Virus record (IMG/VR): IMGVR_UViG_3300023240_000066 | Location: 1-32,860 of that record | Direction: 5' to 3' (one strand) | From: a virus | DNA: 32,860 nt | In this document: in pieces, positions 1 to 32,036 of the stretch | How the letters are laid out: each line of letters opens with the position of its first letter | Numbering within the stretch: the stretch's first letter is position 1 | Made by a program: the position numbers and the translations under genes | The notes under the pieces: generated by a model | Told to the model about the DNA's origin: nothing | Seen by the model: the letters and a program-made list of their open reading frames with translations, nothing else | The model's database searches: none

Positions 1-127
1 TCAAGGCGGGAACCGCCTGAAGTAAAAAGCCTGTGGACATGATATTAGACTTGTATCCTTAATTGGAAATAAAGCAATTGTGAGTGAAGCAGGAAGCCCC
101 TACCTCTTTAGGGTCGGGGTAGTTCAC
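1..127 (+). mobile_element. Right-end fragment of an IS605-type element (tnpB tail / guide-RNA scaffold region)
   Basis: This stretch is a perfect inverted copy of 19860-19986. It ends in TAGTTCAC, the same last bases as the right end of the intact IS605 element at 22107. Read in the frame of its last part it gives a TnpB-like tail (ACGHDIRLVSLIGNK then EAGSPYLFRVGVVH), with a stop or frameshift further upstream, so it is a relic and not a gene. The first bases form a GGCGG-GAA-CCGCC hairpin. Its left end lies outside the window, so its full length is unknown. The neighbouring exonuclease gene takes its stop codon from the last bases of the element. Confidence 0.75.
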
Positions 128-672
128 AGAAGTTTATGTCTGATTAATCGAACTACTTGCATTGCATCTTCTACTGCATGATGTGTCACCACACTAGGTA
201 ATCCTGCTCTTTCTAAACATGTCGACAGATTAGGAACATCTTTATCATCTTTAGTAACATACATGGAACCAACGTCTAATGCTCTATGAGAAGCATTAAT
301 ATCTTTCCAATCATAAATCATATCTAGAAATTTAGAGTCGAACATACCAAAGTTTTTACCTGCAAATACTACTTTTTCTATATTATTCTCATCAAGCCAT
401 TTCCCGAAACTTTCAGCTAACTCTTTAGGAGAGATAACCATATCAGTACCTATAGCATCTCTCATCGCTAAAATAGTGTCTGTATTCATCGATAATGCAA
501 ATATTTCACCTTTGATCCTATTATCTTCTTCAAGTAGATATTTGTGATAAGTAGGGAGTGTGTCAAGAGGACGAGAATCTTGTAGATCATCGATAATTGC
601 CCCAATTTCAAGTATTTGACCTATCCAGGGATTAAGAGAAGTAGTTTCTAAGTCTAAAGAACAATAATGCAT
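124..672 (-). CDS. DnaQ-like DEDDh 3'-5' exonuclease
   Basis: This 182-residue protein has the full DEDDh exonuclease set: D7 and E9 in the DLET motif, D112 in the MFD segment, then H164 and D169 in an HxAxxD motif near the C-terminus. The family removes nucleotides from 3' ends of DNA or RNA using two metal ions. The length fits a stand-alone DnaQ/oligoribonuclease-type domain. The gene is divergent from the tagged gene at 708. Its stop codon lies inside the IS605-type right end at 1-127, so the original C-terminus may have been replaced or trimmed by that insertion. Whether it proofreads, trims RNA or degrades host DNA cannot be told. Confidence 0.85.
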   Translation of the reverse strand: MHYCSLDLETTSLNPWIGQILEIGAIIDDLQDSRPLDTLPTYHKYLLEEDNRIKGEIFALSMNTDTILAMRDAIGTDMVISPKELAESFGKWLDENNIEKVVFAGKNFGMFDSKFLDMIYDWKDINASHRALDVGSMYVTKDDKDVPNLSTCLERAGLPSVVTHHAVEDAMQVVRLIRHKLL

Positions 673-6248: not shown

Positions 6249-6899
6249 ATGACACTTCCATTTAATAATAAATCAAGACAAAGAAAATTTAATTGTTTTG
6301 TTTGTGGTACAGAACTTCCTTCTTTAGAAGATTTCAAAGAACATGTAGTTAAAGAGCATGAAGAACTGAAGGATTATATTATATGTCCTGTACCACACTG
6401 TAAAACGCCCGTTAGGGACCTCAAAATGCATGTTAAGTGCAATCACCCAGGATTAGATACTAAACGTCTTAAAGGTCCTCTCAGGGCTATTGTGTGGCGT
6501 GATTTCAAGAATGGTAAGACTAAAAAGAAAGTAAACTTCAAAAAAGGTGTCCATGAATCAACTAAAATGAAAAAAGGCTTTATTTTTAGAAGTGGAATGG
6601 AAGAAAGTGTCTTTAAAGCCTTAGATGATCATAAAGACATATTAGCTTATGAAGTAGAACCTTTTGTAATTGAGTATTTCTTTGAGGGAGCTAATCATAA
6701 ATACACTCCTGATGTATTTGTTACATTTCAAGATGGGAAGGAAGAGATCTGGGAAATTAAGCCAGAGAATCAAACAGAAATGGCTATTAATAAAGCTAAA
6801 TGGGAAGCTGCCAGACAAGCAGGTAAAATGCGAGGATGGGAGTTTAAAGTAATTACAGAGAAATCCGTAAAAAACCTTATTAATGAAGCTAAAAAATGA
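6249..6899 (+). CDS. C2H2 zinc-finger protein with TnsA-like PD-(D/E)XK nuclease domain
   Basis: Two zinc-finger-like motifs open the protein: C16/C19/H32/H37 and C46/C51/H61/H66. The C-terminal half (about 112-205) carries a PD-(D/E)XK nuclease pattern: E118 or E119 in the first helix, D155 in YTPDVFV, then E169-x-K171 in EIWEIKP. This strand-and-WEIKP arrangement is typical of TnsA-type endonucleases and related phage nucleases. The fingers suggest DNA binding. It overlaps the ADP-ribosyltransferase-like gene by ATGA and is probably co-expressed with it. A head-completion or DNA-processing role is possible, as phage nucleases of this fold act during packaging. Confidence 0.75.
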   Translation: MTLPFNNKSRQRKFNCFVCGTELPSLEDFKEHVVKEHEELKDYIICPVPHCKTPVRDLKMHVKCNHPGLDTKRLKGPLRAIVWRDFKNGKTKKKVNFKKGVHESTKMKKGFIFRSGMEESVFKALDDHKDILAYEVEPFVIEYFFEGANHKYTPDVFVTFQDGKEEIWEIKPENQTEMAINKAKWEAARQAGKMRGWEFKVITEKSVKNLINEAKK

Positions 6900-9984: not shown

Positions 9985-10524
9985 CTATCGGTGAGGTACA
10001 GGTAAAAGTACTGATGTAGCAACTGTAACTGCCTGTGCCAATGTTTTCACTCTAAAATCTGTCGCTTCTTTAATCATAGGATGATTATGAATATTTTCCT
10101 CTTCAGATATAACAATTAATGGTATCTTATAGGCATATGCCCAAGCAATTTCCATTACAGTCCCAATACTTACTTTAGGATAATCCAGGAAGTTTACTAT
10201 TATCAAATCACTTCTTTGACAATCATTATGGTCTCTACTAGTAATTCCTCTTGAAGAGGAAAGAACAGTAGCTATTTCTCCAAGATGATGAGAATTATCG
10301 TAACTTCCAGAAATGTCTTCCATACCTTCTAGGTACTTTTTTCCCCTCATAGGACTCATTCCTATAATTTCTTTCGGGAACATTTTCATAATTTCTTCCC
10401 TCCAACCTATACTATTATCAAAACTTAATCCTGATATAGGTCCTGCTAAATATACAATAAATCTCATTCCTGAATCTAATACAGACTTTTCATTTGATTT
10501 ATTTTTCTTGAAATTAAAATTCAC
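9985..10524 (-). CDS. Nucleoside 2-deoxyribosyltransferase-like protein
   Basis: The core starts at residue 20 with MRFIVYLAGPISGLSF, the nucleotide-binding opening of this superfamily, and continues to DLIIVNFLDY and then GTVMEIAWAYAYKIPLIVI, where the glutamate is the usual nucleophile position. Family members exchange or hydrolyse the base of deoxynucleosides or dNMPs, so a role in recycling host nucleotides is likely. The GTG start at 10524 forms a GTGA overlap with the helicase stop, which supports it; an ATG at 10467 is the alternative and would remove nineteen residues. Confidence 0.75.
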   Translation of the reverse strand: MNFNFKKNKSNEKSVLDSGMRFIVYLAGPISGLSFDNSIGWREEIMKMFPKEIIGMSPMRGKKYLEGMEDISGSYDNSHHLGEIATVLSSSRGITSRDHNDCQRSDLIIVNFLDYPKVSIGTVMEIAWAYAYKIPLIVISEEENIHNHPMIKEATDFRVKTLAQAVTVATSVLLPVPHR

Positions 10525-13500
10525 TGATTAAACTCCGATTGGAACATTGCTTTTCTAAATCTTTCTTCACTAAAACCCATAACTTTTCTAGCCTTTTCAG
10601 GATATTTCTTTACATCTTTAATTGATCTAAATCCTGCTGCGTATAATTTTTCTGCTCTTACCTTACCGACATCATTGATTTCACACAATGGTAATAAGGC
10701 GTCAGAGACACCATATCTGATTCTCATGGACATTTTCTTGAGAAAGTCCCTCTTATTCCATTTAGCACCCATAGAATCGATTGTATAGAGTACAGAGAGT
10801 GTTCTTTCAAAGTCTGATTGAATACCTCTACACATTGCAGCAAAAGGACCAGGATTAAGACCTTTTAGTAGCAAATAATAAGCATAAGCACCTTTCGCTG
10901 CCGAACCATTATCAAATTTGGTGCCAAAACGGTTTCTCAATTTAGCATCAAAAGCTCCCATGAATTCCTTTTCTGCTTTAGTGGTAAATCCTGCACGTAT
11001 TGAATCAATATTACCTAATGCTGCTGCAATAGCTACATCATCATTTTCCCAATCCAAACCAAATACAGTATTAAAGTTTTTAGACAGGTCTGAAGCATCG
11101 AAAGGAGAGTAATAGAACATACTAGAAACTTTTCCAATAGGAGTCACTATATATTCATCATTCTCAACTTTAACAGCTTTACACTTCAATAATAATTCAA
11201 TTGTATTTTCAACAATATCGTCATGAAGATCATTAGCTTGAAATTTAGCCAAACTCTTTTCATACCAAGAATAAAGATCCTCTTTAGTCTTAATCACACC
11301 TTGAAAAATTTCACTAACTATATGAAAAGCTAGAGTTTTGTAGTGAGGATTATCTTCATTTCCCACATAATCTAAAAGGCGACTTTCAATGTCTCTAGGA
11401 GTTGACAGTCTTTCATGATGATGTTCAAAGTTATTGTCTGGGAGTAGAACATAAGCATCGCCTTTTGGATCTAACCCAACACGACCTGATCTACCTATCT
11501 CTTGGAATATATCATAGGATTCAACTTCGGTCATCCCACGATGAACACCTGCTATAATAACTCTTCGGGCAGGCATATTAATACCCCAGGCGAGTCCAGA
11601 TGTAGCAATCAGAACTCTCAACTTCTTTGTTCTAAAATTTAGTTCTATTTTTTCTCTTTTTTCTCTTGTAAGATCTGCACTATGAAATTCACATGGTACT
11701 CCATTCTCTTCAAAATGTTTTTTCATTTTTAAACCTGTTGTTTTCGTATGGGCAAACACCAGGAAGTGATCTTCATCATGTTCTTCAATAATTTCTAAAC
11801 ATTTCTTTATTTTAGAATCTTCATTATAATTGTAATATTTTTTGTGTTCATAAGTCTCCCAATGAATATCCAAAGGACAAGGTCGGTATTCTGATTGTAA
11901 AAGATAAGTATCTCTACCAGTCAGACTATAACTAACCCATTCTGCTATTTCTGCGACATTGGGCATTGTTGCAGATAAAAAAACCATTCTGCACTCAGGT
12001 GATATTTCTGAGAATTTCATTAAACCCACTTCTAAGTGATCGCCACGTCCACCTACTGTCAAGAGGTGGCAATTCGATACTAGTACATCGTCAGCAAAAT
12101 AATTGTGATAATCCTCTATTTCTAGATCATAAACATAATCTATACCACCTCTGCCCCATTTTTTTACTTCGATAATTTTAGAAGAATGATTATTTAGAAA
12201 ATATGATATTTTTTCATCAACATGAGCAACGCCTTTTTCAACATCCTTATTTGTTAAATACAAACACTCATAGCCTATTTCGGCGTACCTCTCTACAGTT
12301 TCAAGTATTTCTTCTTCTGTATGCCAATACTCTACATCACCTACTTCAATAACTTTTCTTTTACCATTTACTTTGAAATCAGGGTTTTTTCTTTTGCTAT
12401 TTTTGAAAGTTAACCAAAATTTACCATTAGACGTTTTTCTGATACCTTTTTCACAAGCTATTTCGTCAACAAATAACTCCAAGGAAGTGTCATAAGTTTT
12501 ATTCTTAGGAGTATTAATAAATCTCTGTATTTGTAACTCTTTTTCTTCTTCGGATAGATTATTCCATCTATCCCTACCAGTTTGTTTTAATTTTTCTACC
12601 GCACCTTCTACATTATAAATAGGATTATTTTTTCCTAATCTATTTCTGCCCATTGCTTTCATCGAAGCTTTAAATTTAGGACTATCCATTTTCGCTTTAT
12701 TGATTTTATCATAATGATCTTGAGTATAATGATGATGACTTTCATGAATTCCTCGTGAATGCGCATTTTCGAACTCTTTACCACAAACCTTACAAATGTT
12801 TGTTTTAGGAATGTATTTAGGTTTTTCTGAACCACAATGATTTAAATGGTTTTTATAACCATACACTGATATTTCTTTGTCACACTTTTCGCATTTTTTG
12901 ACACTATCTGAATGATTCGTGTTTTTACCTTTAGATAGATGTCCGTAAACGTAATGCGAATTTAAAGCTGATTTACTTTTAAATTCTTTATCACATAAAA
13001 CACATGACAAAGAGTCATCCTCTGGGATGTATTTGATTTCATCAGAAGATGTTAAATCACTAGCCTTTTTATAACCTTTGGAAGTCCAGATTTTGTGATC
13101 TTCAGTACAGATCAAAGAGCCATATTCATGTTTGACCCTAACCAAGCCCTTAGTTCTTGGTTTTTTTATTTTTCTAAGAATCTTCTTTTTGACTAATGAA
13201 TTCGTACAATGATCATATGCTAAAACTTCGTTGATATCATCAGATTCTACAATATTTTTAATAGGCAATTCCAAGTTTCTTTCTATCTTTATTTTGGTTT
13301 TACCAGGAAAACATTCATCGACTATAATGGTTTTAACATCTTGAAGAAAGTTATTCTTTTCTGATTTAAAATTTCGACAACGACTTGATAACATTTCAGA
13401 TGTCATCAATATAATATCAGCATCATCTAATTCTTTTTTCCTTGCTTCAGTGATTCTATAATCACCAGTCATTATAGAAATTTTAAGATCAGAAAAATGA

Positions 13501-13817
13501 TGATTTTCGGACAACCAATCATCTGTCTTTTCTTTGGCTAATGCTTTGAGTGGAGCTAAATATATAGCCTTGCCCTTAGTTCTATCATCAGGGCGTTTTC
13601 TTGCATTAGGACGAACTTCAGAACTAATGAATTGTTCTGCTACGATTGTTTTGCCACTCGATGTTTGAGCAGCAACTATACAATTACAATCTTGATCATA
13701 GAATTCAAAGGTTCTGCTTTGTACTGGGTTGAATTCGTCGAAAGGGAACTTAGCTGATTTAAACGAAGAGGTAGGGACCAAAACGTGTTGGTCCCCCACT
13801 TTTTTCACTGGTGGCAT
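10521..13817 (-). CDS. Ski2/Hel308-type DECH-box helicase precursor containing an intein
   Basis: The 1098-residue precursor reads as a superfamily 2 helicase of about 684 residues split by an intein at 169-582. Before the intein are a Q-like motif (FNPVQ), Walker A AAQTSSGKT near 49-57 and YLAPLKALAKEK. Motif II is DECH, with the intein between DE and CH. After it come LSATMPN, FAHTKTTG, HSADLTREKREKIE, VLIATSGLAWGINMP and QEIGRSGRVG. The C-terminus ends with a helix-hairpin-helix (INDVGKVRAEKLYAAGFRS), as in Hel308. These enzymes unwind DNA at stalled forks or recombination intermediates. Splicing is needed to form the ATPase site. Confidence 0.9.
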   Translation of the reverse strand: MPPVKKVGDQHVLVPTSSFKSAKFPFDEFNPVQSRTFEFYDQDCNCIVAAQTSSGKTIVAEQFISSEVRPNARKRPDDRTKGKAIYLAPLKALAKEKTDDWLSENHHFSDLKISIMTGDYRITEARKKELDDADIILMTSEMLSSRCRNFKSEKNNFLQDVKTIIVDECFPGKTKIKIERNLELPIKNIVESDDINEVLAYDHCTNSLVKKKILRKIKKPRTKGLVRVKHEYGSLICTEDHKIWTSKGYKKASDLTSSDEIKYIPEDDSLSCVLCDKEFKSKSALNSHYVYGHLSKGKNTNHSDSVKKCEKCDKEISVYGYKNHLNHCGSEKPKYIPKTNICKVCGKEFENAHSRGIHESHHHYTQDHYDKINKAKMDSPKFKASMKAMGRNRLGKNNPIYNVEGAVEKLKQTGRDRWNNLSEEEKELQIQRFINTPKNKTYDTSLELFVDEIACEKGIRKTSNGKFWLTFKNSKRKNPDFKVNGKRKVIEVGDVEYWHTEEEILETVERYAEIGYECLYLTNKDVEKGVAHVDEKISYFLNNHSSKIIEVKKWGRGGIDYVYDLEIEDYHNYFADDVLVSNCHLLTVGGRGDHLEVGLMKFSEISPECRMVFLSATMPNVAEIAEWVSYSLTGRDTYLLQSEYRPCPLDIHWETYEHKKYYNYNEDSKIKKCLEIIEEHDEDHFLVFAHTKTTGLKMKKHFEENGVPCEFHSADLTREKREKIELNFRTKKLRVLIATSGLAWGINMPARRVIIAGVHRGMTEVESYDIFQEIGRSGRVGLDPKGDAYVLLPDNNFEHHHERLSTPRDIESRLLDYVGNEDNPHYKTLAFHIVSEIFQGVIKTKEDLYSWYEKSLAKFQANDLHDDIVENTIELLLKCKAVKVENDEYIVTPIGKVSSMFYYSPFDASDLSKNFNTVFGLDWENDDVAIAAALGNIDSIRAGFTTKAEKEFMGAFDAKLRNRFGTKFDNGSAAKGAYAYYLLLKGLNPGPFAAMCRGIQSDFERTLSVLYTIDSMGAKWNKRDFLKKMSMRIRYGVSDALLPLCEINDVGKVRAEKLYAAGFRSIKDVKKYPEKARKVMGFSEERFRKAMFQSEFNQ
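12072..13313 (-). other. Intein (C169-N582) with C2H2 fingers, NUMOD3-like segment and Vsr-like nuclease
   Basis: The intein begins CFPGKTKI and ends DDVLVSN, with cysteine as the first residue of the C-extein. Block B has T238-x-x-H241 (CTEDHKIW); block F/G is VYDLEIEDYHNYFADD and VLVSN. The penultimate residue is Ser, where His is usual. The central insert has three zinc-finger-like motifs (C272/C275, C309/C312, C342/C345 with downstream histidines or cysteine), a NUMOD3-like stretch (GRNRLGKNNPIYN, about 390-402) and a Vsr/EDxHD-type nuclease with NPDFKV, then VIEVGDVEYWH at 489-499. Inteins usually carry LAGLIDADG or HNH nucleases, so this is a less common type. Confidence 0.85.
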
Positions 13818-22106: not shown

Positions 22107-22240
22107 GTGAACTACCCACCCACGGCAGAGCCGATGGGTTGGGCTTCGGGTTTCACAGAGTGTGCGTTATTGCTAACGTCTGATTTCCTCTCCACCTTCG
22201 TAATCGCCAGTTCCTGACGATATATTTTTAATCCTTCATT
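22107..22240 (-). ncRNA. Probable TnpB guide RNA scaffold (omega RNA / reRNA); 5' end approximate
   Basis: In studied IS605 elements the RNA guide for TnpB comes from the 3' end of tnpB through the right end, with its guide copied from the flanking DNA. The corresponding region here has a right-end hairpin (CCCATCGG...CCGTGGG) and ends TAGTTCAC, so the guide would start with CTTGACTTAG, reading on the minus strand beyond 22107. The RNA itself is inferred from the family, and its 5' boundary is a rough estimate. Confidence 0.4.
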
Positions 22241-23308
22241 TAAAATGTTCTTTGCTGCGTTTAAATCACGGTCTAATTTATGACCATTTTTGCAAGTCCA
22301 TTCTCTAATTGAAAGATTTAAGTCTTGGTTTATCCAACCACATTCACAACACGTTTTTGATGATGGATACCAGCGATTGATTTTAACGACTTCTTTGTCG
22401 TTCCAATCCGCTTTGTATTCAAGTAACCGAACAAATGTTCCCCAACTTGCATCAGATATATGTTTGGCAAGTTTATGGTTCTTTACCATACCCTTTACGT
22501 TAAGGTCTTCCAAAAAAATCACATCATAATCTGATACTAATTGATGAGATACTTTGTGCAAGTTATCCATTCGTGAATTGGCTATCTTTTCGTGAATCAA
22601 GGCTGTTTTTCGTCTTTGTTTTTCAAACGAACCACTACCTTTTGTTTTACGAGAAAGATGTTTTTGTGCTTTCGCTAACTTTCTTTCATATTGTTTTGTG
22701 TATCTATTATTCTTAAATTTTATTCCATCCGATGTAATAGCAAAGTCTTTTAATCCTAAATCTATTCCACATACTGCACCAGTCTTTTCTTTTGGAATAT
22801 ATTGTTCTTCTGATAGAATTGATACAAAATATTTTCCAGTAGGTGTTTTAATTAAAGTGCATTTACCTATTTCACCTTTTACTTCACGATGAACATTTAC
22901 CTTTATTCCCTCTTTGAATTTTGGAGCGTAAAATCTGCCATCATTTAATTTGGCAAACTGCGGAACAGTAAATGTATTTTTCTTTTTTCTTGACTTAAAT
23001 CTTGGAAACTTTGCATTGCCTCGAAAAAAGTTTACATAAGCAGTGTCTAAACACCTTAAAGCAAATTGTAATGATTGACTATTAACTTCTTTAAGCCAGG
23101 CGGTTTCTTCTTTTTTCTTTAATCCAGTAAGAGTTGCTGCTTGTGCGTAGTAGTTATCTGATTTCTTATCTACTTGATATTGTTCCTTGCGTTCATTTAA
23201 AAAATGATTGTAAACATAGCGGATACATCCAAAATGCTTATCCAACAGCGTTTTCTGCTCTTGAGTAGGCATTAATTCAAATTGATATGTCCGAAATATT
23301 GTTTTCAT
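22112..23308 (-). CDS. tnpB: TnpB RNA-guided endonuclease
   Basis: The 398-residue protein is a full-length TnpB: an N-terminal HTH-like region (YQFELMPTQEQKTLLDKHFG), the FPRFKSRKKKNTFTV segment, and a RuvC-like nuclease with D183 (GIDLGLKDFA), E267 (FLEDLNVKGM) and the final aspartate D348 (LDRDLNAAKNIL). A zinc ribbon near 317-343 has CCECG paired with CKNGH, so one usual cysteine is replaced. TnpB cuts DNA chosen by its guide RNA and helps keep the element after excision. The reading ends in the right end itself. All catalytic residues are present. Confidence 0.95.
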   Translation of the reverse strand: MKTIFRTYQFELMPTQEQKTLLDKHFGCIRYVYNHFLNERKEQYQVDKKSDNYYAQAATLTGLKKKEETAWLKEVNSQSLQFALRCLDTAYVNFFRGNAKFPRFKSRKKKNTFTVPQFAKLNDGRFYAPKFKEGIKVNVHREVKGEIGKCTLIKTPTGKYFVSILSEEQYIPKEKTGAVCGIDLGLKDFAITSDGIKFKNNRYTKQYERKLAKAQKHLSRKTKGSGSFEKQRRKTALIHEKIANSRMDNLHKVSHQLVSDYDVIFLEDLNVKGMVKNHKLAKHISDASWGTFVRLLEYKADWNDKEVVKINRWYPSSKTCCECGWINQDLNLSIREWTCKNGHKLDRDLNAAKNILNEGLKIYRQELAITKVERKSDVSNNAHSVKPEAQPIGSAVGG

Positions 23309-23423: not shown

Positions 23424-23891
23424 ATGTCTAAAAAAAGTAATTACATCAGCACAAATCGGTCTAAACATTACCTTAAATGTCATTTAATCTTTGTTTGTAA
23501 ATATCGTAAACCAATGTTGGTTGGTCAGTTAAATTATGACATTAAGCAAATCTTCTTATCTATTGCCAGTGAGTCAGATTTTGATATTGAAGTGATGGAA
23601 ACAGACCAAAATCACGTACATTTTCTAATTCGTTACATTCCACGTTGGTCTATTGCTCAAATTGTCCGTAGGTTAAAACAAGAATCTACTCGTCAAATAT
23701 GGTTATTACATCCAACTACTTTACGTAAACAATATTGGTATCAGAAACTACTTTGGTCGGATGGGTATTTCGTTTGTTCAATAGGTGAAGCATCACCTGA
23801 TACTATTCGTGAGTATATCCTTAATCAGGGTTATTCGCTTACATCCCACCCACGTAAAAACGATGTGTGGGTTTTACGCTCCGTTTTATAA
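23424..23891 (+). CDS. tnpA: TnpA, Y1 HUH transposase of the IS200/IS605 family
   Basis: The 155-residue protein has the HUH motif HVH (H64, H66) and the catalytic tyrosine Y131 with Q135 in EYILNQ, as in IS608 TnpA. These dimers cut and rejoin single-stranded DNA next to a short target chosen by base pairing, without duplicating it. Its stop codon TAA (23889-23891) lies outside the element, within ATAAA, the complement of the TTTAT target. It may also mobilise the short related elements here. It is divergent from tnpB, with a 115-bp AT-rich region between. Confidence 0.95.
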   Translation: MSKKSNYISTNRSKHYLKCHLIFVCKYRKPMLVGQLNYDIKQIFLSIASESDFDIEVMETDQNHVHFLIRYIPRWSIAQIVRRLKQESTRQIWLLHPTTLRKQYWYQKLLWSDGYFVCSIGEASPDTIREYILNQGYSLTSHPRKNDVWVLRSVL

Positions 23892-25533: not shown

Positions 25534-25809
25534 CTACTTTGATCTAGGGAAGTTTCTTATGTAACTAACTTTGACATCAACTGATGGAAGCAGAGAAATC
25601 AAAATATTTGCTATCACTTTCACAGTAACAGGGTATCCGTATCCATAAACAGATATTGTTTTATTATAAAAGTTGTATTCTATTTTAGCGATATATTTGT
25701 TATTTTTCTAAAATCCTTTCAAATATACACAACCATCATCATGATCATATTTAAAACCTAGTTCATTAATATTAAATATGAATATTAACAAATCTTTATC
25801 ATTTAACAT
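25534..25809 (-). pseudogene. Paralogue of the 25203 gene with an in-frame amber codon
   Basis: The frame starts at ATG 25809 in a TAATG overlap with the preceding gene, runs 33 codons to KGF, meets TAG at 25708-25710, then continues for 57 codons (KNNKYIAKIEYNFYNKTI, VYGYGYPVTVK, VDVKVSYIRNFPRSK) to a second stop. The second part aligns with the neighbouring paralogue, so the TAG is inside what was one gene. TAG also ends other genes here, so it is not reassigned. A point mutation, suppression, or readthrough are the options. Confidence 0.65.
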
Positions 25810-26309
25810 TACTTGTTATTTCCGAAATAATCATTTTGCATTGAAGCCATATCACTGAATGATTCAGATTTTATATCTCGATTAAGTTTATCCATTTCCT
25901 TACGAATCATATGACCTCGACTTGTAGCATTGTCATGTGCTTTATCCCATGCTTTCAAATGCTGTTTAATTTGAGTCACTTTATGTTTTGTACTAATAGA
26001 GCTTTTTTTACACTTATCAACTTCAGGATCTAATTTAACTTTAGCTTCACAAGCTTTATCTGATCCTCCTTGACTTTTATGATAATCAAATGATTTAGCA
26101 GATGCTTTGTCATACTCCCAATCACAATAAGAAAGAAGGGCTTCAGCTTCAGATAATTTCTGAGAAAAGTAATCGTACCATTGACCCAATGAATCCATAA
26201 AATCATTGAGCGTAGTTTCGTTAAACTTCATTCTCTCTGAATCTAAAACTATTTTTTCTTGTCCTAAGACAACGGTTCTTTTATTTTCTGGTGGTTGTTC
26301 CATTTTCAT
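25809..26309 (-). CDS. Helical protein, possibly a UvsY-like recombination mediator
   Basis: I start at ATG 26309 (MKMEQPPENK, 166 residues); a GTG just upstream is less likely. The protein is almost all charged helix: WYDYFSQKLSEAEALLS, then KVTQIKQHLKAWDKAHDNAT and SRGHMIRKEMDKLNRD. Size, helix content and the Tyr/Lys-rich middle recall UvsY of T4-type phages, which loads UvsX on SSB-coated DNA, but no diagnostic motif proves it. It directly follows the helicase gene. Another option is a helicase-associated factor. Confidence 0.5.
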   Translation of the reverse strand: MKMEQPPENKRTVVLGQEKIVLDSERMKFNETTLNDFMDSLGQWYDYFSQKLSEAEALLSYCDWEYDKASAKSFDYHKSQGGSDKACEAKVKLDPEVDKCKKSSISTKHKVTQIKQHLKAWDKAHDNATSRGHMIRKEMDKLNRDIKSESFSDMASMQNDYFGNNK

Positions 26310-26328
26310 CACTTCATATAAGAGTTAA

Positions 26329-27840
26329 TTAATCACCTGCAAATCCATTTTGTGCCTTTTCTATTTCTCCATCCATTTTTCGTTCTTCCTTATTAGACTC
26401 GTACTCTTGCATAATTTTATCATATTTATTTCTAGATATTTGATTTATACACAATGTCTCTCTATTAAATTCTACGTAAAGAACGTATCTGCTTTGTCCG
26501 TTTCTGTGTTTGATTACAAATATACGTCCTACATCAGCTTCAATTTCATCTTGAGTTCTATTTAAAGACCAACATCCATGAAGAGGTTTAATCTGGGCAT
26601 AGGAGTCTCCGATATTATCATCATCAATAACTCCTATACCACCAAACATATTACCATTTTTAATAACTTCTTTAGCTGTCTTATTAGGTTGCAATGCCGT
26701 ATACACAAGTATGTCTAAATCGACCGACAATGCCCCCAGATCTCTTACGATCTTATAACGTGACTCATGGACAGGCATATCAGGATAGTCCTTCATTTCG
26801 CCAATATAGTCCAAAACAAGAAGGTCTGGTTTAAACCCGTTTATTTCTAGTTGTTGCAAGTACGCCCTTAGATCGGGAAGTGATAATTGTCCTGGTGGGA
26901 ATCTTTTAATAATTAATAACCGACCGTCTTCTTGACCTTCAATTTCTTCTGCTAATGCTTGCTTAACCGCTTCCTTATTTTCAAGAATTTTATTGATATT
27001 GATATTTGAAATCTGTGCATCAAATCGTTCTGCTACTTCTAATTGAGACATTTCTAAAGAAACATACAAAACTTTCTTTTTCAATGATATGTTTCTTACA
27101 GCAGCATTAACCAATGCTAGAGATTTCCCTGATCCTGATAAACCTACCCAAGCAAAAACCTGTCCTCTTTTACAACCACCACCGCTTAGTTTTTCATTAA
27201 TACCTTCAAAACCAGATGTGAATATTTCTCCCTTTTCTTCATCTTCTTGCATTTGAAGAAACCGTTCTTCGATTTCTTCAAAATAATTCAAACCTATATC
27301 AAAGTTTCGATCAACACTTAAAGCTTTTTGTAAAATATCTTGTATTTTAATCCAAGTAGATTCATTAGCAGAATCTTTCTTTAACTTTTGCATACATATA
27401 CTGAATGCATCTTTTATAGATTGTAGTTTAGCAAATTGAACTATCTTTTCAAGTATTGCTTCCCTGGAATCTGAAGAAGGAATATAATTTTCATAAACAT
27501 TATTCAGTTCTACTTTAAATCTCGAAACATCTTCTTCTGATTTTCCTGTTTTTTTAAGAAAGCAATATACGTTTTCTTCGACCATCACTCTTGATGGCAT
27601 CGCTTTATACTTTTCCATATATTCGAAAAGTATTTTACAAAGCTCAATATGAACATCTGAAACAAAGTGAGATGGTTCAATCAAACCTTCTGCTTGAGTA
27701 GCGAAGAACTGGTCACAAAGTAGGTTAGATATTACATATTGTTGAAAGCCTGGAGACCAATCGAATTTTTGTTCTTGGGTTTGTAAAGGATCTTGAAGAT
27801 GATTCACATCATCAATAAAGTCGTCTTCTAAATATTCCAT
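26329..27840 (-). CDS. DnaB/gp41-type replicative helicase
   Basis: The 503-residue protein has a helical N-terminal domain (about 1-190) and a RecA-like ATPase. Walker A is GLSGSGKS at 233-240, preceded by TSGFEGINEKLSGGG, the usual DnaB context; KVLYVSLEMSQLEVAERFDA follows; Walker B is LLVLDYIGEM at 340-349; and HRNGQSRYVLYVEFNRET gives the C-terminal arginine-finger region. It forms a hexamer that unwinds DNA at the fork. Partners such as DnaG/gp61 primase are not seen in the window, which makes the unusual polymerase at 30131 more interesting. Confidence 0.92.
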   Translation of the reverse strand: MEYLEDDFIDDVNHLQDPLQTQEQKFDWSPGFQQYVISNLLCDQFFATQAEGLIEPSHFVSDVHIELCKILFEYMEKYKAMPSRVMVEENVYCFLKKTGKSEEDVSRFKVELNNVYENYIPSSDSREAILEKIVQFAKLQSIKDAFSICMQKLKKDSANESTWIKIQDILQKALSVDRNFDIGLNYFEEIEERFLQMQEDEEKGEIFTSGFEGINEKLSGGGCKRGQVFAWVGLSGSGKSLALVNAAVRNISLKKKVLYVSLEMSQLEVAERFDAQISNININKILENKEAVKQALAEEIEGQEDGRLLIIKRFPPGQLSLPDLRAYLQQLEINGFKPDLLVLDYIGEMKDYPDMPVHESRYKIVRDLGALSVDLDILVYTALQPNKTAKEVIKNGNMFGGIGVIDDDNIGDSYAQIKPLHGCWSLNRTQDEIEADVGRIFVIKHRNGQSRYVLYVEFNRETLCINQISRNKYDKIMQEYESNKEERKMDGEIEKAQNGFAGD

Positions 27841-27963: not shown

Positions 27964-28515
27964 TCAACAAAAATCATATTCTGACATAGAAACAAGACCT
28001 GTTCGTATACCTTTCTCTTTAGTGATTTTTTTACCTAAAGTTTTTTGTCTATTCCAGGTAACGGATTTTGCGTAATTCGAAAACTCCCCATTCATATCTA
28101 AAGGAGCGTTTACTTCTGGTTTTTCTGAATCGGGAACAAATTCATGTAATAAATTGTCCAGAACTTCTTCTTGATGTTGTCCAAACTTTTTTCTCTTTGA
28201 GCCATCTTTAGTTCTCTTGAACCACATGTCAGAAAGATGCTTTAACACTTTTCTACAAAAAACATCATCAACATATTTATCACATAATTCCAAACAGTTT
28301 TTTATATAAACTTGTCGTTTATGATAAGTGGCGGCTATAATTAAAGACATTCTCATTTCTTGAGCTACATCTTCTTGATCGTCAGTATGATTATTCTTCG
28401 AATTTCTTTTTATAAGTTGCCAACCTTGATATTGACACAATTCTCCAAATTCTCTATCTAAAATATCATAATCTTCACTTGTAACCGAAAATTTATCAGC
28501 AGTTATAGCAGACAT
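27964..28515 (-). CDS. Small sigma-70-like protein, possible late sigma factor
   Basis: The start at 28515 (MSAITADKFSV, 183 residues) fits a TAATG overlap and a GGAGA site; the ATG at 28557 is less likely. A region-2-like segment (NNHTDDQEDVAQEMRMSLII) contains the acidic and hydrophobic pattern of sigma factors, followed by YIKNCLELCDKYVDD and a basic region FKRTKDGSKRKKFGQHQ. The length resembles T4 gp55, which directs host polymerase to TATAAATA promoters. The DNA-binding region 4 is not clear. I treat the sigma role as likely but unproven. Confidence 0.5.
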   Translation of the reverse strand: MSAITADKFSVTSEDYDILDREFGELCQYQGWQLIKRNSKNNHTDDQEDVAQEMRMSLIIAATYHKRQVYIKNCLELCDKYVDDVFCRKVLKHLSDMWFKRTKDGSKRKKFGQHQEEVLDNLLHEFVPDSEKPEVNAPLDMNGEFSNYAKSVTWNRQKTLGKKITKEKGIRTGLVSMSEYDFC

Positions 28516-28865
28516 TATTTTCTCCAATAATTTATTGCAACACCTTTTTCGAAACATAAGTCTATTTCATACAATGAAAAGACATGTAATTGTTTCGTAT
28601 TAGAGTGTGATATTTTTTCTATCGTGCATTCACTTAATTTCAACACTTCGTCTAATTCTGAATCAATGTAAATAAAAACCTCTGCTTCAAACTTTGTTTT
28701 TCCATAAATTAAAAATTGAGAAGAATTCGAACCATTTAAAATTTTTAATTGTGATAACGTGATATGATTTTTATTTTCTTCTAAAGACTCTGGTAGTGTA
28801 TTCACGTAACCTTCGAAAATCATATCTTGGTCATCTGATATAAAACTAACATGACATTTTATCAC
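28515..28865 (-). CDS. Small unknown protein
   Basis: A 116-residue beta-rich protein (KCHVSFISDDQDMIFEGYV, EAEVFIYIDSELDEVLKL) starting with GTG inside the end of the polymerase gene. No family is recognised. It is embedded between the polymerase and sigma-like genes with overlapping ends, so it is expressed with them and may be a small replication or transcription accessory protein. Confidence 0.6.
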   Translation of the reverse strand: MIKCHVSFISDDQDMIFEGYVNTLPESLEENKNHITLSQLKILNGSNSSQFLIYGKTKFEAEVFIYIDSELDEVLKLSECTIEKISHSNTKQLHVFSLYEIDLCFEKGVAINYWRK

Positions 28866-30138
28866 GCTTGGTTAACTTCATCGTTTGTAAGTTGCCCAAA
28901 CATTCTCCAATTCTACAATCTACAAGCAATTGTAAACCATTAAACATAGTATTTCTTTCTAGGATTTCTTTAACCTCAAAAGCAATAGAAGACCAAAATC
29001 TTCTTTCACATAAAATTAAATAACTATCGTGAATATTCATGTTTAGTTTCGAATTATTTGGCAGGTTTTCATGCAATTCAATTAATTTACTTAAACAAAT
29101 ATGTGCGGCAGGTGATTGTACTTTAAAATTTCTGATCTTATATTTGTCTTTGACATCAAAAGATCTTATCTTCCCAAAACAATCTTTAACTTCATCAGAA
29201 TCTAAATCAGATTCTATCCAAGAGAATAGGGCAGGAAATAATTCTCTTATTCTATTTATCAATTGAGATGATATTTCTTCATTTAATTTCGGATTTAATC
29301 CAGATAATGATTTAGGACCCATTCCATACAGAACAGGTAGGAATATCTTTTTACACAAATCTCTTTGGCTTGCATTACACCCACCCTTTGTAATCCTTTT
29401 CCAAATAGCTTCGTAAATATCATCTTTACCTGATATTAGTTCTTTAAGGTTCTGATCCCCAGAGATCCAAGCAGCAGTACAAACTTCCATCCCTTTGTAG
29501 TCGAACTGCAAAAAATAACCTTGAGGCATACCCGCATGAATTCCTTTTTTATACTCTTGACTCATATTATGTGGTAAATAACAATCTTTTAACGTTTTTG
29601 TGGTTTTTAATCTACCATTAACTTGGTTCAATATTTCATAATGAGAATAAACCATTTTTTGTTGATTTCTATCAGTTACTGGTTGTATTTCCATATCGAC
29701 CAATACTCTACTAATCAACTTCCAATAAAACAACTTATACTCTTGTTGTACATTTTCGAATCCACATTTTTTTAAACAAACAAATGCTTCTTTGAATGAA
29801 ATAGGTTTTTTTATATTATTACCAACCATTTCAGAAACAATATTTAAATCAATCACTAAAATATTTGAATGAAAATTGTATTTAGAAATATGCCGAAGTA
29901 CGCAAAAAATTTCTTTAATATTCCAAGCCAAAACTAAAGGCTTATCTTCTTTGGGCAATGTTTTAAATAAAGAGTAAACTATTTTAGCGTTTTCCTCAAC
30001 TAATATATTCAACTTAACTTCATGTGTATCGCTTTTGATATTCAGTATCACTTCCTTGTTATCAGTAAAATCACAGTTAGATTCTAGGTAAACATATAGA
30101 TTACCTTTGAACATTTGCTTGATATGGTGATTATCCAT
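28846..30138 (-). CDS. Compact family A DNA polymerase
   Basis: I start at ATG 30138 (MDNHHIKQMF, 430 residues) because the longer reading begins with TTG. The C-terminal half carries the family A motifs: GRLKTTKTLKDCYLP, motif A FDYKGMEV (D213, E218), motif B R259-x3-K263 to Y271-G272, and motif C IHDSY (H370, D371). The position of Phe762 in E. coli Pol I is Leu267, and the Glu after the motif C Asp is Ser372. The N-terminal 150 residues keep an exonuclease-like layout (LVLAWNIKEIFCVLRHI) but no clear metal ligands. At this size it lacks much of the thumb/exonuclease region of normal Pol I. Confidence 0.8.
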   Translation of the reverse strand: MDNHHIKQMFKGNLYVYLESNCDFTDNKEVILNIKSDTHEVKLNILVEENAKIVYSLFKTLPKEDKPLVLAWNIKEIFCVLRHISKYNFHSNILVIDLNIVSEMVGNNIKKPISFKEAFVCLKKCGFENVQQEYKLFYWKLISRVLVDMEIQPVTDRNQQKMVYSHYEILNQVNGRLKTTKTLKDCYLPHNMSQEYKKGIHAGMPQGYFLQFDYKGMEVCTAAWISGDQNLKELISGKDDIYEAIWKRITKGGCNASQRDLCKKIFLPVLYGMGPKSLSGLNPKLNEEISSQLINRIRELFPALFSWIESDLDSDEVKDCFGKIRSFDVKDKYKIRNFKVQSPAAHICLSKLIELHENLPNNSKLNMNIHDSYLILCERRFWSSIAFEVKEILERNTMFNGLQLLVDCRIGECLGNLQTMKLTKRDKMSC

Positions 30139-31339
30139 GTTGCACAACCTTACAAGAAGGTTTGATTCCGTAAAAACTAAATTGAGTATTTATAATCTCT
30201 TGAAGGTTAGCAATATTGTGTTCGTGAATCAAGAAAGAATCATGAATTGTTGAAATAAATTCTTCTGGGTATTTTTTTATAAAAGTACCAACAATCTTCT
30301 CAAGAACAAAGTAACTCTCCACTCGCATTAAAAGCTTACTTAGAATGCGATAATCCTTTTCTTTGACTTTTTGAATTGTCTCCCAAACTTCAGGAAATTC
30401 TATTGAGAAACTTTCTGTAAGATCCGTTTTGTAATAATTCTTACCGAATAAGATCTCTTTGAATACTTTCTTCTTGAAATCACCTGCATAGTTTTCATTA
30501 CCACTTATTATTTTCAGATAACTGTAAAGCCTCCCATCTACAACTTTGGCTAGAAACCTACGATATACATTTGTTTTGCACATCGTGTTGGAGGAGGGGA
30601 GGGGGGATGTTTTAATAAAAAAAGAATTTACATTCTTAGAAGAATCTAAAGAATAAGAAAAATTATTTAATAAAAGAATTGCTAAAAAGAATGGTTGACT
30701 ATTCTGAATATCTAATTCAATAATTGTTTTATTATCAACTAATAGATGTTTTCTTAAACTTTTACTTAAATTAGAAATATTACTATGTACTCTCCCATGA
30801 ATATCAGATTTGAAGAAAAATTCTCTTTGAGAAATCTGATCTAAACACATTTGATCATATAAGTCATTATCCGTTTTTTCAAAAATATTATCTGGTAAGT
30901 AGATCTTATTTAGATTTTTTAACAGATGTTCTTCAGCAAGAGTTTTAGGTTTAACTCGTTTTTTGTGATCTTCAATAAATTTGTTGAGTTTTACACTCAC
31001 CCTTTTACCTAGAAGTTTCTTTTTTCCAATTTTCAAAAATTCTGGACCTAGTGCATAACTATAAGATTTTATCCCCTTAATATATCTTAAATCACAAACA
31101 ATTACCTGTTTTTCGATAAGTACATCACGAATCTTATGGTAGTTTCTCCAATTCATTACTTTTCGGAGTAATTCAGCCTTAAGCTCAACTTTTTCATTAT
31201 TTTTGAATTTATGGTAGTTCTGTCTTTTAACTATGAGATGAACTAGATAGGATGCATCATCCTTGTATTTAGCCAATGAGCTAGGCAATATAGCATCTAA
31301 ATCCAAATTAACAGGTAAATAAGCGTAGAATTTTTTCAT
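30131..31339 (-). CDS. Divergent single-subunit (right-hand) polymerase-like protein
   Basis: The 402-residue protein has a winged-helix-like N-terminus (NYHKIRDVLIEKQVIVCDL, 67-84). Then IHGRVHSNISNLSKSLRKHL (180-199) resembles the GRxSS...LxxxxR segment before motif A of family A polymerases. Motif A is ELDIQNSQPFFLA with D210; motif B is FKKKVFKEILFG (K290 region to G299); motif C is STIHDSFLI with H366 and D367. The HDS form of motif C is the one used by T7-type RNA polymerases. Q215 replaces the steric-gate Glu. It is coupled to the DNA polymerase gene. A primase or RNA polymerase role is plausible; no function is proven. Confidence 0.6.
   Translation of the reverse strand: MKKFYAYLPVNLDLDAILPSSLAKYKDDASYLVHLIVKRQNYHKFKNNEKVELKAELLRKVMNWRNYHKIRDVLIEKQVIVCDLRYIKGIKSYSYALGPEFLKIGKKKLLGKRVSVKLNKFIEDHKKRVKPKTLAEEHLLKNLNKIYLPDNIFEKTDNDLYDQMCLDQISQREFFFKSDIHGRVHSNISNLSKSLRKHLLVDNKTIIELDIQNSQPFFLAILLLNNFSYSLDSSKNVNSFFIKTSPLPSSNTMCKTNVYRRFLAKVVDGRLYSYLKIISGNENYAGDFKKKVFKEILFGKNYYKTDLTESFSIEFPEVWETIQKVKEKDYRILSKLLMRVESYFVLEKIVGTFIKKYPEEFISTIHDSFLIHEHNIANLQEIINTQFSFYGIKPSCKVVQHG
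30590..30606 (+). other. G-rich tract with G-quadruplex potential
   Basis: The run GGAGGAGGGGAGGGGGG stands out in a very AT-rich window. It has four G-runs of at least two bases on the plus strand. It lies inside the polymerase-like gene, which is read from the other strand (codons for SPLPSS), so the message is C-rich here. Whether it forms a quadruplex in the replicating DNA is unknown. Confidence 0.6.
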
Positions 31340-32036
31340 GGATAACCGATTAAAAAATATAATTGATCTAAAAATGGATGATTTAGAATCTAAAGCATTT
31401 AAAATATCTTTGATGTGGGAAGATTACTGTAAAAGAGAATTCCCAAATGAAAGATGTACATGCCTTCCTAAGAAAAAAGACCCAAGAAAATCTATATTGT
31501 TTAAATACTGTTATAAACTAGCAAAAGAAACACTAGGGATTATACCAGATAATGAATATAGATTATATGTTATAGCACAACTCCAAGTTCTAAAGTCATT
31601 AAAGAAAGATGGTGTTCACGGAATGATTGCACCACAAATACTTACTGGACCTCAAGCCTGGAAAAGATGGAAGTATTGGAAGTTCATTTACAACCAAAGA
31701 ATGGCTCAAGTCCCAGATGTGGAATCTACCAAATCCAATGTTAATCTACCAAAAATCAATAAGGATTTCAATACTACTAAAAACTTTTTAGCGGCAAAAA
31801 TAAAACCATTAACAATTAATGGTTTAGAAACAAAAATAGAAGATTTAAGTTTAATAAGGTGGGTATTAACGGAAAAAGTAACGCCCTTATATATTATATT
31901 ATCACCTTGGGTCAGATCAAAAGTAACATTAAAAATTATTGAAAATAACTTTAATATTGATTTGGCTATGCATAGACCGAAAATAACAAAAGAAGTCGAA
32001 GACCTTTTTGGAAAAGTGTTTGATTATGAATTTTAG
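31338..32036 (+). CDS. Unknown 232-residue protein divergent from the polymerase operon
   Basis: The family is not recognised. The protein is basic in the centre, with an N-terminal helix, a CTCLPKKKDPRK stretch, YCYKLAKETLGIIP and a tryptophan cluster AWKRWKYWKFIYNQR around 108-122 that suggests a nucleic-acid or protein binding surface. Its ATG shares bases with the ATG of the divergent polymerase-like gene (CATG at 31337-31340), so both genes begin at the same point. An internal ATG at 31374 is the alternative start. A replication accessory role is suggested only by position. Confidence 0.65.
   Translation: MDNRLKNIIDLKMDDLESKAFKISLMWEDYCKREFPNERCTCLPKKKDPRKSILFKYCYKLAKETLGIIPDNEYRLYVIAQLQVLKSLKKDGVHGMIAPQILTGPQAWKRWKYWKFIYNQRMAQVPDVESTKSNVNLPKINKDFNTTKNFLAAKIKPLTINGLETKIEDLSLIRWVLTEKVTPLYIILSPWVRSKVTLKIIENNFNIDLAMHRPKITKEVEDLFGKVFDYEF

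Follow-up and report, generated by a model that had tools for sequence, protein, structure and literature searches.

The IMG/VR virus record IMGVR_UViG_3300023240_000066, a linear stretch of 32,860 bp that was analysed at full length (the window), is a fragment of a T4-like large bacterial virus (phage) and carries on its minus strand two overlapping genes, one for a compact family-A DNA polymerase of 430 amino acids (aa), here called pol1, and one for a divergent 402-aa protein with a predicted PolA-type palm, here called p2. The two genes are coupled, an arrangement shared by five distinct phages. The best explanation, to which we assign a probability of roughly 0.6, is that pol1 and p2, both of the family-A fold, serve as accessory DNA polymerases that depend on a template, that they are translationally coupled, and that they supplement the replication cassette of T4-like jumbo phages in which DNA polymerase III alpha (PolIII alpha) is the main replicative enzyme and works with a DnaG-like primase. 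An initial annotation, made from the sequence letters, had placed two adjacent right-hand polymerases here; both open reading frames (ORFs) have the limits that it gave, both proteins are predicted to adopt PolA folds, and the catalytic Asp residues of both are intact.

The two genes and their coupling

The features needed for the argument are given below; residue conservation was counted over 32 non-redundant relatives for pol1 and over 51 for p2.

28846..30138 (-): pol1, family-A DNA polymerase with a Klenow-like fold and a degenerate exonuclease-like N-terminal part (Pfam, AlphaFold2, Foldseek; 43 loci)
29485..29502 (-): pol1 motif A, D213...E218, with a Glu steric gate as in DNA polymerases (D and E invariant, 32/32)
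29323..29364 (-): pol1 motif B, R259-K263-Y271-G272 (K and G 32/32; R 31/32; Y or F 32/32)
29023..29031 (-): pol1 motif C, H370-D371-S372 (D 32/32)
30131..31339 (-): p2, divergent protein of 402 aa with a predicted PolA palm (ORF, AlphaFold2, Foldseek; family of 51)
30779..30805 (-): p2 motif D179-xx-GRVHSN (N187), resembling the PolA GRLHTxF segment (D, R and H invariant, 51/51)
30692..30712 (-): p2 motif A, D210-IQNSQ-P216 (D, N, S, Q and P invariant, 51/51)
30443..30475 (-): p2 motif B (O-helix), K289...F298-G299 (K and F invariant, 51/51)
30236..30250 (-): p2 motif C, T364-I-H-D367-S368 (T, H, D and S invariant, 51/51)
30131..30138 (-): overlap of the p2 stop and the pol1 start, ATGGATAA, 8 bp

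pol1 belongs without doubt to the family-A DNA polymerases, and its palm is intact. It comprises 430 aa when read from the ATG at 30138 (an alternative TTG at 30147 gives 433 aa) and matches the Pfam family PF00476 (DNA_pol_A) with 76.2 bits and an E-value of 3.2e-21, the curated cut-off being 34.3, so that the Pol A motifs first recognized by eye are borne out. Its AlphaFold2 (AF2) model, with a predicted local distance difference test score (pLDDT) of 91.2, has a Klenow-type fold and finds Bst, Klenow, Pol nu and the apicoplast polymerase in Foldseek at E ~1e-18 (query-normalized template modelling score, TMq, 0.70-0.79), the 430 aa aligning over chains of about 580 aa. Proofreading has probably been lost, judging from the alignment, because the position of the exonuclease II Asp (K75+2) is non-acidic in all 32 relatives, where it is hydrophobic, Tyr or Thr; at the exonuclease I place an acidic residue is often retained. 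A scan of viral contigs with the single protein yielded nothing, but a scan with the pol1 alignment did yield loci.

The overlap between p2 and pol1, first counted as nine bases, is 8 bp long in the window and consists of the 4 bp ATGA in the other four phages that carry the pair (L004, L110, L114 and L115), which upholds the proposed coupling of the genes. Over the 43 pol1 loci the gene order is conserved as divergent gene, pol1, 183-aa gene, DnaB and UvsY-like gene. Six of these loci contain p2, which in each case sits precisely between the divergent gene and pol1, and they represent five distinct phages: the window, LR756511 (595 kb), a 341-kb IMG contig together with its 103-kb near copy, a 187-kb contig and a 39-kb contig. 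All five pol1-adjacent p2 proteins form one group in the p2 tree (support 84/79). In the pol1 tree the window stands apart from the other four pair phages on a long branch, but a single clade is not rejected (p-AU 0.075); the p2-pol1 junction may thus have arisen once or twice. The number of nonsynonymous substitutions per site (dN) is about 0.17-0.45 for both proteins, with synonymous substitutions (dS) saturated, and p2 is under purifying selection. At 31337-31340 the ATG of p2 and that of the divergent gene stand head to head in a CATG palindrome, with no intergenic promoter space; the p2 promoter must therefore lie inside the divergent neighbour or further upstream.

Family, motifs and predicted fold of p2

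Down to a limit of E 1, p2 matches nothing in Pfam or NCBIfam; it has no informative PHROG match, and neither the protein nor its profile found a significant match in PDB sequence searches. While a scan of viral contigs with the single protein returned nothing, the scan with an alignment did succeed and marked 108 places, 80 of which were kept and reduced to 51 non-redundant proteins; tblastn of p2 against phage records matched six huge-phage records. Across the 51 proteins 21 residues are invariant (D179, R183, H185, R196, D210, N213-P216, G269, Y272, K289, F298, F311, P316, K326, E341, T364 and H366-S368), a conservation far above chance, and these identical residues include members of the landmarks that the initial annotation had found in the same order as in pol1. 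The family has a signature of its own, with DIxNSQP as motif A, K...F as motif B and THDS as motif C. Motif B of the window protein is one residue longer than in the huge-phage clade, column 294 being gapped in 46/51, and the GRVHSN segment was aligned to DPQGRLHTNF of the DNA polymerase I structure 7r0k at a sub-threshold E of 0.91.

In the AF2 model of p2 (pLDDT 86.8; predicted template modelling score, pTM, 0.84) an N-terminal domain (residues about 1-110) is followed by a helical linker and by palm and fingers (about 175-400), with a strand (204-211) and then a helix (214-224) around motif A. The catalytic set D210, K289 and D367 is invariant in the 51 proteins and the palm/fingers fold is present in the model; this predicted fold, which had been named as a check, matches PolA palms. 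The best Foldseek match in the PDB is Pol theta (2.5e-4), followed by Taq (1.3e-3); TM-scores to PDB chains are low, probably because p2 is without the thumb and exonuclease of these enzymes. Against BFVD, E-values reach 1e-20, with an unnamed 409-aa protein (TM 0.78), a marine-phage protein of 403 aa labelled 'putative DNA polymerase I' (TM 0.76) and a 'DNA polymerase' of the barbavirus Barba31A (E 5.7e-8) among the matches. Profile-profile comparisons, made by hhalign in local mode, gave the pol1 family as the sole significant relative of p2 (P 1.7e-4), with unrelated and reversed controls at P 0.07-0.74. Because of the Foldseek matches and of a profile match to the pol1 family and not to T7 RNA polymerase (RNAP), the palm of p2 is predicted to be of the PolA type. 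The N-terminal domain is, in the model, neither a thumb nor an exonuclease. It had been described as winged-helix-like, and residues 55-97 do have this look (two helices, strand, wing, strand), but Foldseek found no significant winged helix-turn-helix (wHTH) match, leaving the winged-helix reading with no database support.

The residues that bear on sugar selection are also fixed. At the steric-gate position, D+5 of motif A, PolA enzymes have Glu and T7 RNAP has Gly, and p2 has Gln in 51/51. At the O-helix position of Klenow Tyr766 and T7 RNAP Tyr639, p2 has Phe in 51/51; in T7 RNAP, the change Y639F abolishes ribonucleoside triphosphate (rNTP) selection. As aligned, this combination of Gln and Phe is unlike T7 RNAP at either position, and it leads to sharp predictions on sugar selection.

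Relatives of p2 also occur without pol1. They are found in huge phages of up to 735 kb, which have no PolA match and do have matches to family-B DNA polymerase (PolB), and one is located on a Hymenobacter plasmid; used as a query against genome contigs, the plasmid protein found only itself. In the huge phages (W02, W03, W05, G013, G014 and others) the PolB matches are spread over two ORFs of about 400-570 aa, which are separated by tens to hundreds of kb and each cover part of the Pfam model, so PolB is split or duplicated there. Directly before p2 these phages have an ORF of 69-70 aa (L052:5667-5879 (+); homologues in about 39 loci) that corresponds, by Pfam (2.5e-11), to a short stretch from the interior of gp23, the major capsid protein of T4. 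p2 is further flanked by a 443-aa gene upstream (L021:3861-5204) and a 179-aa gene downstream (L049:7347-7886), in about 58 and 62 loci, respectively, both with no significant Pfam match.

A proposed role for the pair and its alternatives

LR756511 and the 341-kb contig, which both carry the pair, encode elsewhere a 337-aa DnaG-like primase, recognized by a Toprim match and weaker matches to the DnaG zinc ribbon and the DnaG N-terminal domain (DnaG_N), as well as a PolIII alpha of 1180-1195 aa. In these relatives the pair is therefore an addition to a complete replication set. PolIII alpha and a DnaG-like primase are present in the pol1 phages of at least 340 kb, two of which carry the pair; the 459- and 527-kb pol1 phages, with no p2 beside pol1, have PolIII alpha and a Toprim ORF of similar length. 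PolIII alpha is also encoded by the 187-kb pair contig, in whose partial record no Toprim match was found, and besides LR756511 it occurs in G003, G017 and several other pol1 contigs.

We propose that a single message yields both p2 and pol1, the two being translationally coupled. Its fold, motifs and steric-gate Glu suggest that pol1 acts as an exonuclease-deficient compact PolA. p2 may likewise synthesize DNA, as its predicted palm fold, intact catalytic residues and purifying selection would imply, with the winged-helix-like N-terminal domain probably gripping duplex DNA in the thumb's place. At phage forks the pair would most likely serve in repair, in the filling of gaps or in the bypass of lesions, and coupling and co-inheritance suggest that the two proteins could perhaps form a heterodimer.

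Several points weigh against this proposal. p2 is absent beside pol1 in 37 of the 43 pol1 loci, and pol1 therefore does not need p2. T7 RNAP (3.7e-3) and the mitochondrial RNA polymerase POLRMT (2.6e-2) come only slightly behind the PolA enzymes in the Foldseek search of the PDB with p2, and the Gln in place of Glu at the gate of every p2 makes the choice between deoxynucleoside and ribonucleoside triphosphates (dNTP or NTP) unreadable from sequence. Of the phage from which the window derives, no more than this fragment is known, and we know of no biochemistry for the divPolA1 or divPolA2 class of divergent phage polymerases, with which the pair is compared below.

The alternative that survives best, although we hold it to be unlikely, is that p2 would be a small single-subunit RNA polymerase (ssRNAP) of the T7/mitochondrial type, transcribing phage genes or making RNA at origins. 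It accords with the listing of T7 RNAP and POLRMT after PolA in Foldseek, with the HDS of motif C, as in T7 RNAP, and with the missing gate Glu of DNA polymerases, and the same option was left open for divPolA2 by the authors who described it (PMC11348598). However, the p2 profile matches T7 RNAP at P 0.57, which is no better than the controls, as opposed to 1.7e-4 for the pol1 family, and no sequence match to a single-subunit RNAP was found, phrog_414 reaching E 0.3 over 39 residues. The initial annotation had taken HDS as characteristic of T7-type RNA polymerases, but pol1 itself has HDS where 27/32 relatives have HDG (position 372 is G in 27/32, A in four and S in the window protein alone), and HDS as proof of an RNA polymerase was rejected for this reason. 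Phe stands at the Tyr639 position in all 51 relatives, and no promoter-binding or ssRNAP-like N-terminal domain is apparent in p2.

Two further roles were considered for p2; the initial annotation had named an initiator with polymerase activity and a primase. That it is a replication initiator or a DNA-binding regulator, with a palm that is structural or used for limited synthesis, appears improbable: the winged-helix-like N-terminus in the predicted secondary structure and the occurrence of one relative on a plasmid would fit, but no positive evidence for initiation was found, wHTH matches are not significant, and the catalytic residues are all invariant, so the palm is selected for catalysis. 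On the Hymenobacter plasmid a separate gene is annotated as the replication initiation protein, and p2 as a plasmid-type Rep was rejected. A still poorer case can be made for p2 as a primase, or a primase-like starter handing primers to pol1. It is coupled to a DNA polymerase and close to DnaB, and the window, as noted initially, has no visible primase (no Toprim primase in the 32,860-bp record and none of any kind among the ORFs scanned), but this absence says nothing about the whole phage because the record is a linear fragment. Large relatives with the same pair have the DnaG-like primase described above, with zinc ribbon, DnaG_N and Toprim, and p2 as the missing primase was rejected accordingly. 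Since a Toprim protein is also present in large pol1 phages without an adjacent p2, p2 fills no primase gap; no Toprim or archaeo-eukaryotic primase (AEP) domain was matched by Pfam in p2 or its relatives. Very unlikely, finally, is a two-palm enzyme in which p2 would start or condition a short RNA or mixed-sugar strand and hand it to pol1 while the winged-helix-like domain picks the site, which, if true, would be a bacterial-virus counterpart of polymerase alpha-primase made from two family-A palms.

The genes next to the pair are:

26329..27840 (-): DnaB-type replicative helicase (PHROG DnaB-like, 7e-57)
25809..26312 (-): candidate UvsY-like recombination mediator, a weak match (phrog_231, E 0.04; position kept in 30 loci)
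27964..28515 (-): 183-aa gene downstream of pol1 (43/43 pol1 loci, same strand)
31338..32036 (+): divergent 232-aa gene, adjoining the p2 start

The replicative helicase that had been seen nearby is thus of the DnaB type, and DnaB is on the strand of pol1 in 31 of the 33 pol1 loci that hold it. The 183-aa gene has no significant family match, and a homologue of the 232-aa gene is present in opposite orientation in 38/43 pol1 loci. Replication and nucleotide genes of the window comprise a UvsX-like recombinase, a gp32-like single-stranded DNA-binding protein, the DnaB-type helicase, thymidylate synthase, a dNMP kinase and a DEAD-box helicase with an intein. The 1098-aa DEAD-box/branch-migration helicase at 10521-13817 (-) is interrupted at residues 182-582 by a domain for intein splicing (Pfam 2.4e-11) and has C2H2 zinc-finger matches inside it. 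An IS200/IS605-type element consists of TnpB (OrfB_IS605, 22112-23308 (-)) and a Y1 TnpA transposase (23424-23891 (+)) in opposite orientation, both apparently full length. A TnsA-like endonuclease domain (Pfam 6.6e-20) lies behind zinc-finger matches at 6249-6899 (+), and a DnaQ-type RNase_T exonuclease (Pfam 1.9e-7) at 124-672 (-) is a candidate for a separate proofreading subunit of a PolIII-type polymerase. PolIII alpha is a single ORF in the large p2-carrying relatives, but in the pol1 phages G002, G019, G020, G021 and G023 and at loci L149, L150 and L151 it is divided between two genes that are separated by roughly 5-16 kb. The split always falls at position 98/99 of PF07733, immediately ahead of the PDIDxDY motif, and has no split-intein match at the junction; a LAGLIDADG-bearing intein lies beside the PHP domain in two of the three split cases examined.

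Comparison with known systems

Phages have been reported to carry two divergent PolAs, divPolA1 and divPolA2, besides a regular polymerase (Yutin et al. 2024, PMC11348598). In divPolA1 the palm is intact, the thumb is truncated and the exonuclease is dead, all three of its Asp being replaced, whereas divPolA2, known from barbaviruses and Vibrio phage 1.063.O (protein AUR84708), consists of a palm and an N-terminal domain unlike any thumb, has no exonuclease and gives structural matches to DNA and mitochondrial RNA polymerases; whether it is a repair polymerase or an RNA polymerase was left open (PMC11348598). By analogy, pol1 would work like divPolA1 and p2 like divPolA2, membership by sequence being unproven.

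pol1 resembles divPolA1 of Flavobacterium phage immuto_3-5A and its relatives in its length (about 440 aa in the latter), its intact palm and, probably, a reduced exonuclease and thumb, in standing at the head of a replication cassette that has DnaB downstream, and in accompanying a regular polymerase, including PolC. The hhalign match between the two (P 1.6e-4) is not specific, because T7 DNA polymerase matches pol1 equally well (P 7e-5), and motif C differs (YTYDAF in divPolA1, IHDSY in pol1). The p2 profile has no match anywhere in the immuto_3-5A genome. p2 shares with divPolA2 a length of about 400-430 aa, the PolA palm, the absence of an exonuclease, a non-thumb N-terminal domain, the company of a regular polymerase, structural matches to DNA polymerases and mitochondrial RNA polymerase, and a similar order of GR segment and motif A. 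The sequence link to the Vibrio divPolA2 is weak (hhalign P 0.01, controls 0.07-0.74); p2 has no match to phrog_4756, the PHROG of AUR84708, and its profile (A2) none in MG592441. The motifs differ, with DIxNSQP and THDS in p2 and YDFKAFE and VFDEV in divPolA2, and so do the neighbourhoods, variable for divPolA2 and coupled to pol1 for p2.

Like the family-A DNA polymerase I enzymes (Klenow, Taq, Pol theta and the apicoplast polymerase), pol1 has palm and fingers, motifs A-C and the steric-gate Glu, but it falls about 150 residues short of the Klenow-type chains that it matches and lacks the exonuclease II Asp; p2 differs from them in having palm and fingers only and Gln at the gate. With the T7 and mitochondrial ssRNAPs p2 shares the right-hand fold and the HDS of motif C, and its D-xx-GRV segment presumably resembles an ssRNAP segment, which we treat as a lead only. 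In contrast to these enzymes, p2 gives no profile match to them, has half their length and another N-terminal part, and carries Phe at the Tyr639 position. p2 adds an unannotated compact PolA-palm family with over 50 non-redundant members in phages of up to 735 kb and with its own invariant signature. The open-access literature held no report of a coupled divergent PolA pair, nor of the p2 family in huge phages, and the pair is the first case we have found of a physical coupling between two divergent PolAs. Thanks to this coupling, co-expression offers a direct test of whether such proteins function as repair DNA polymerases or as RNA polymerases.

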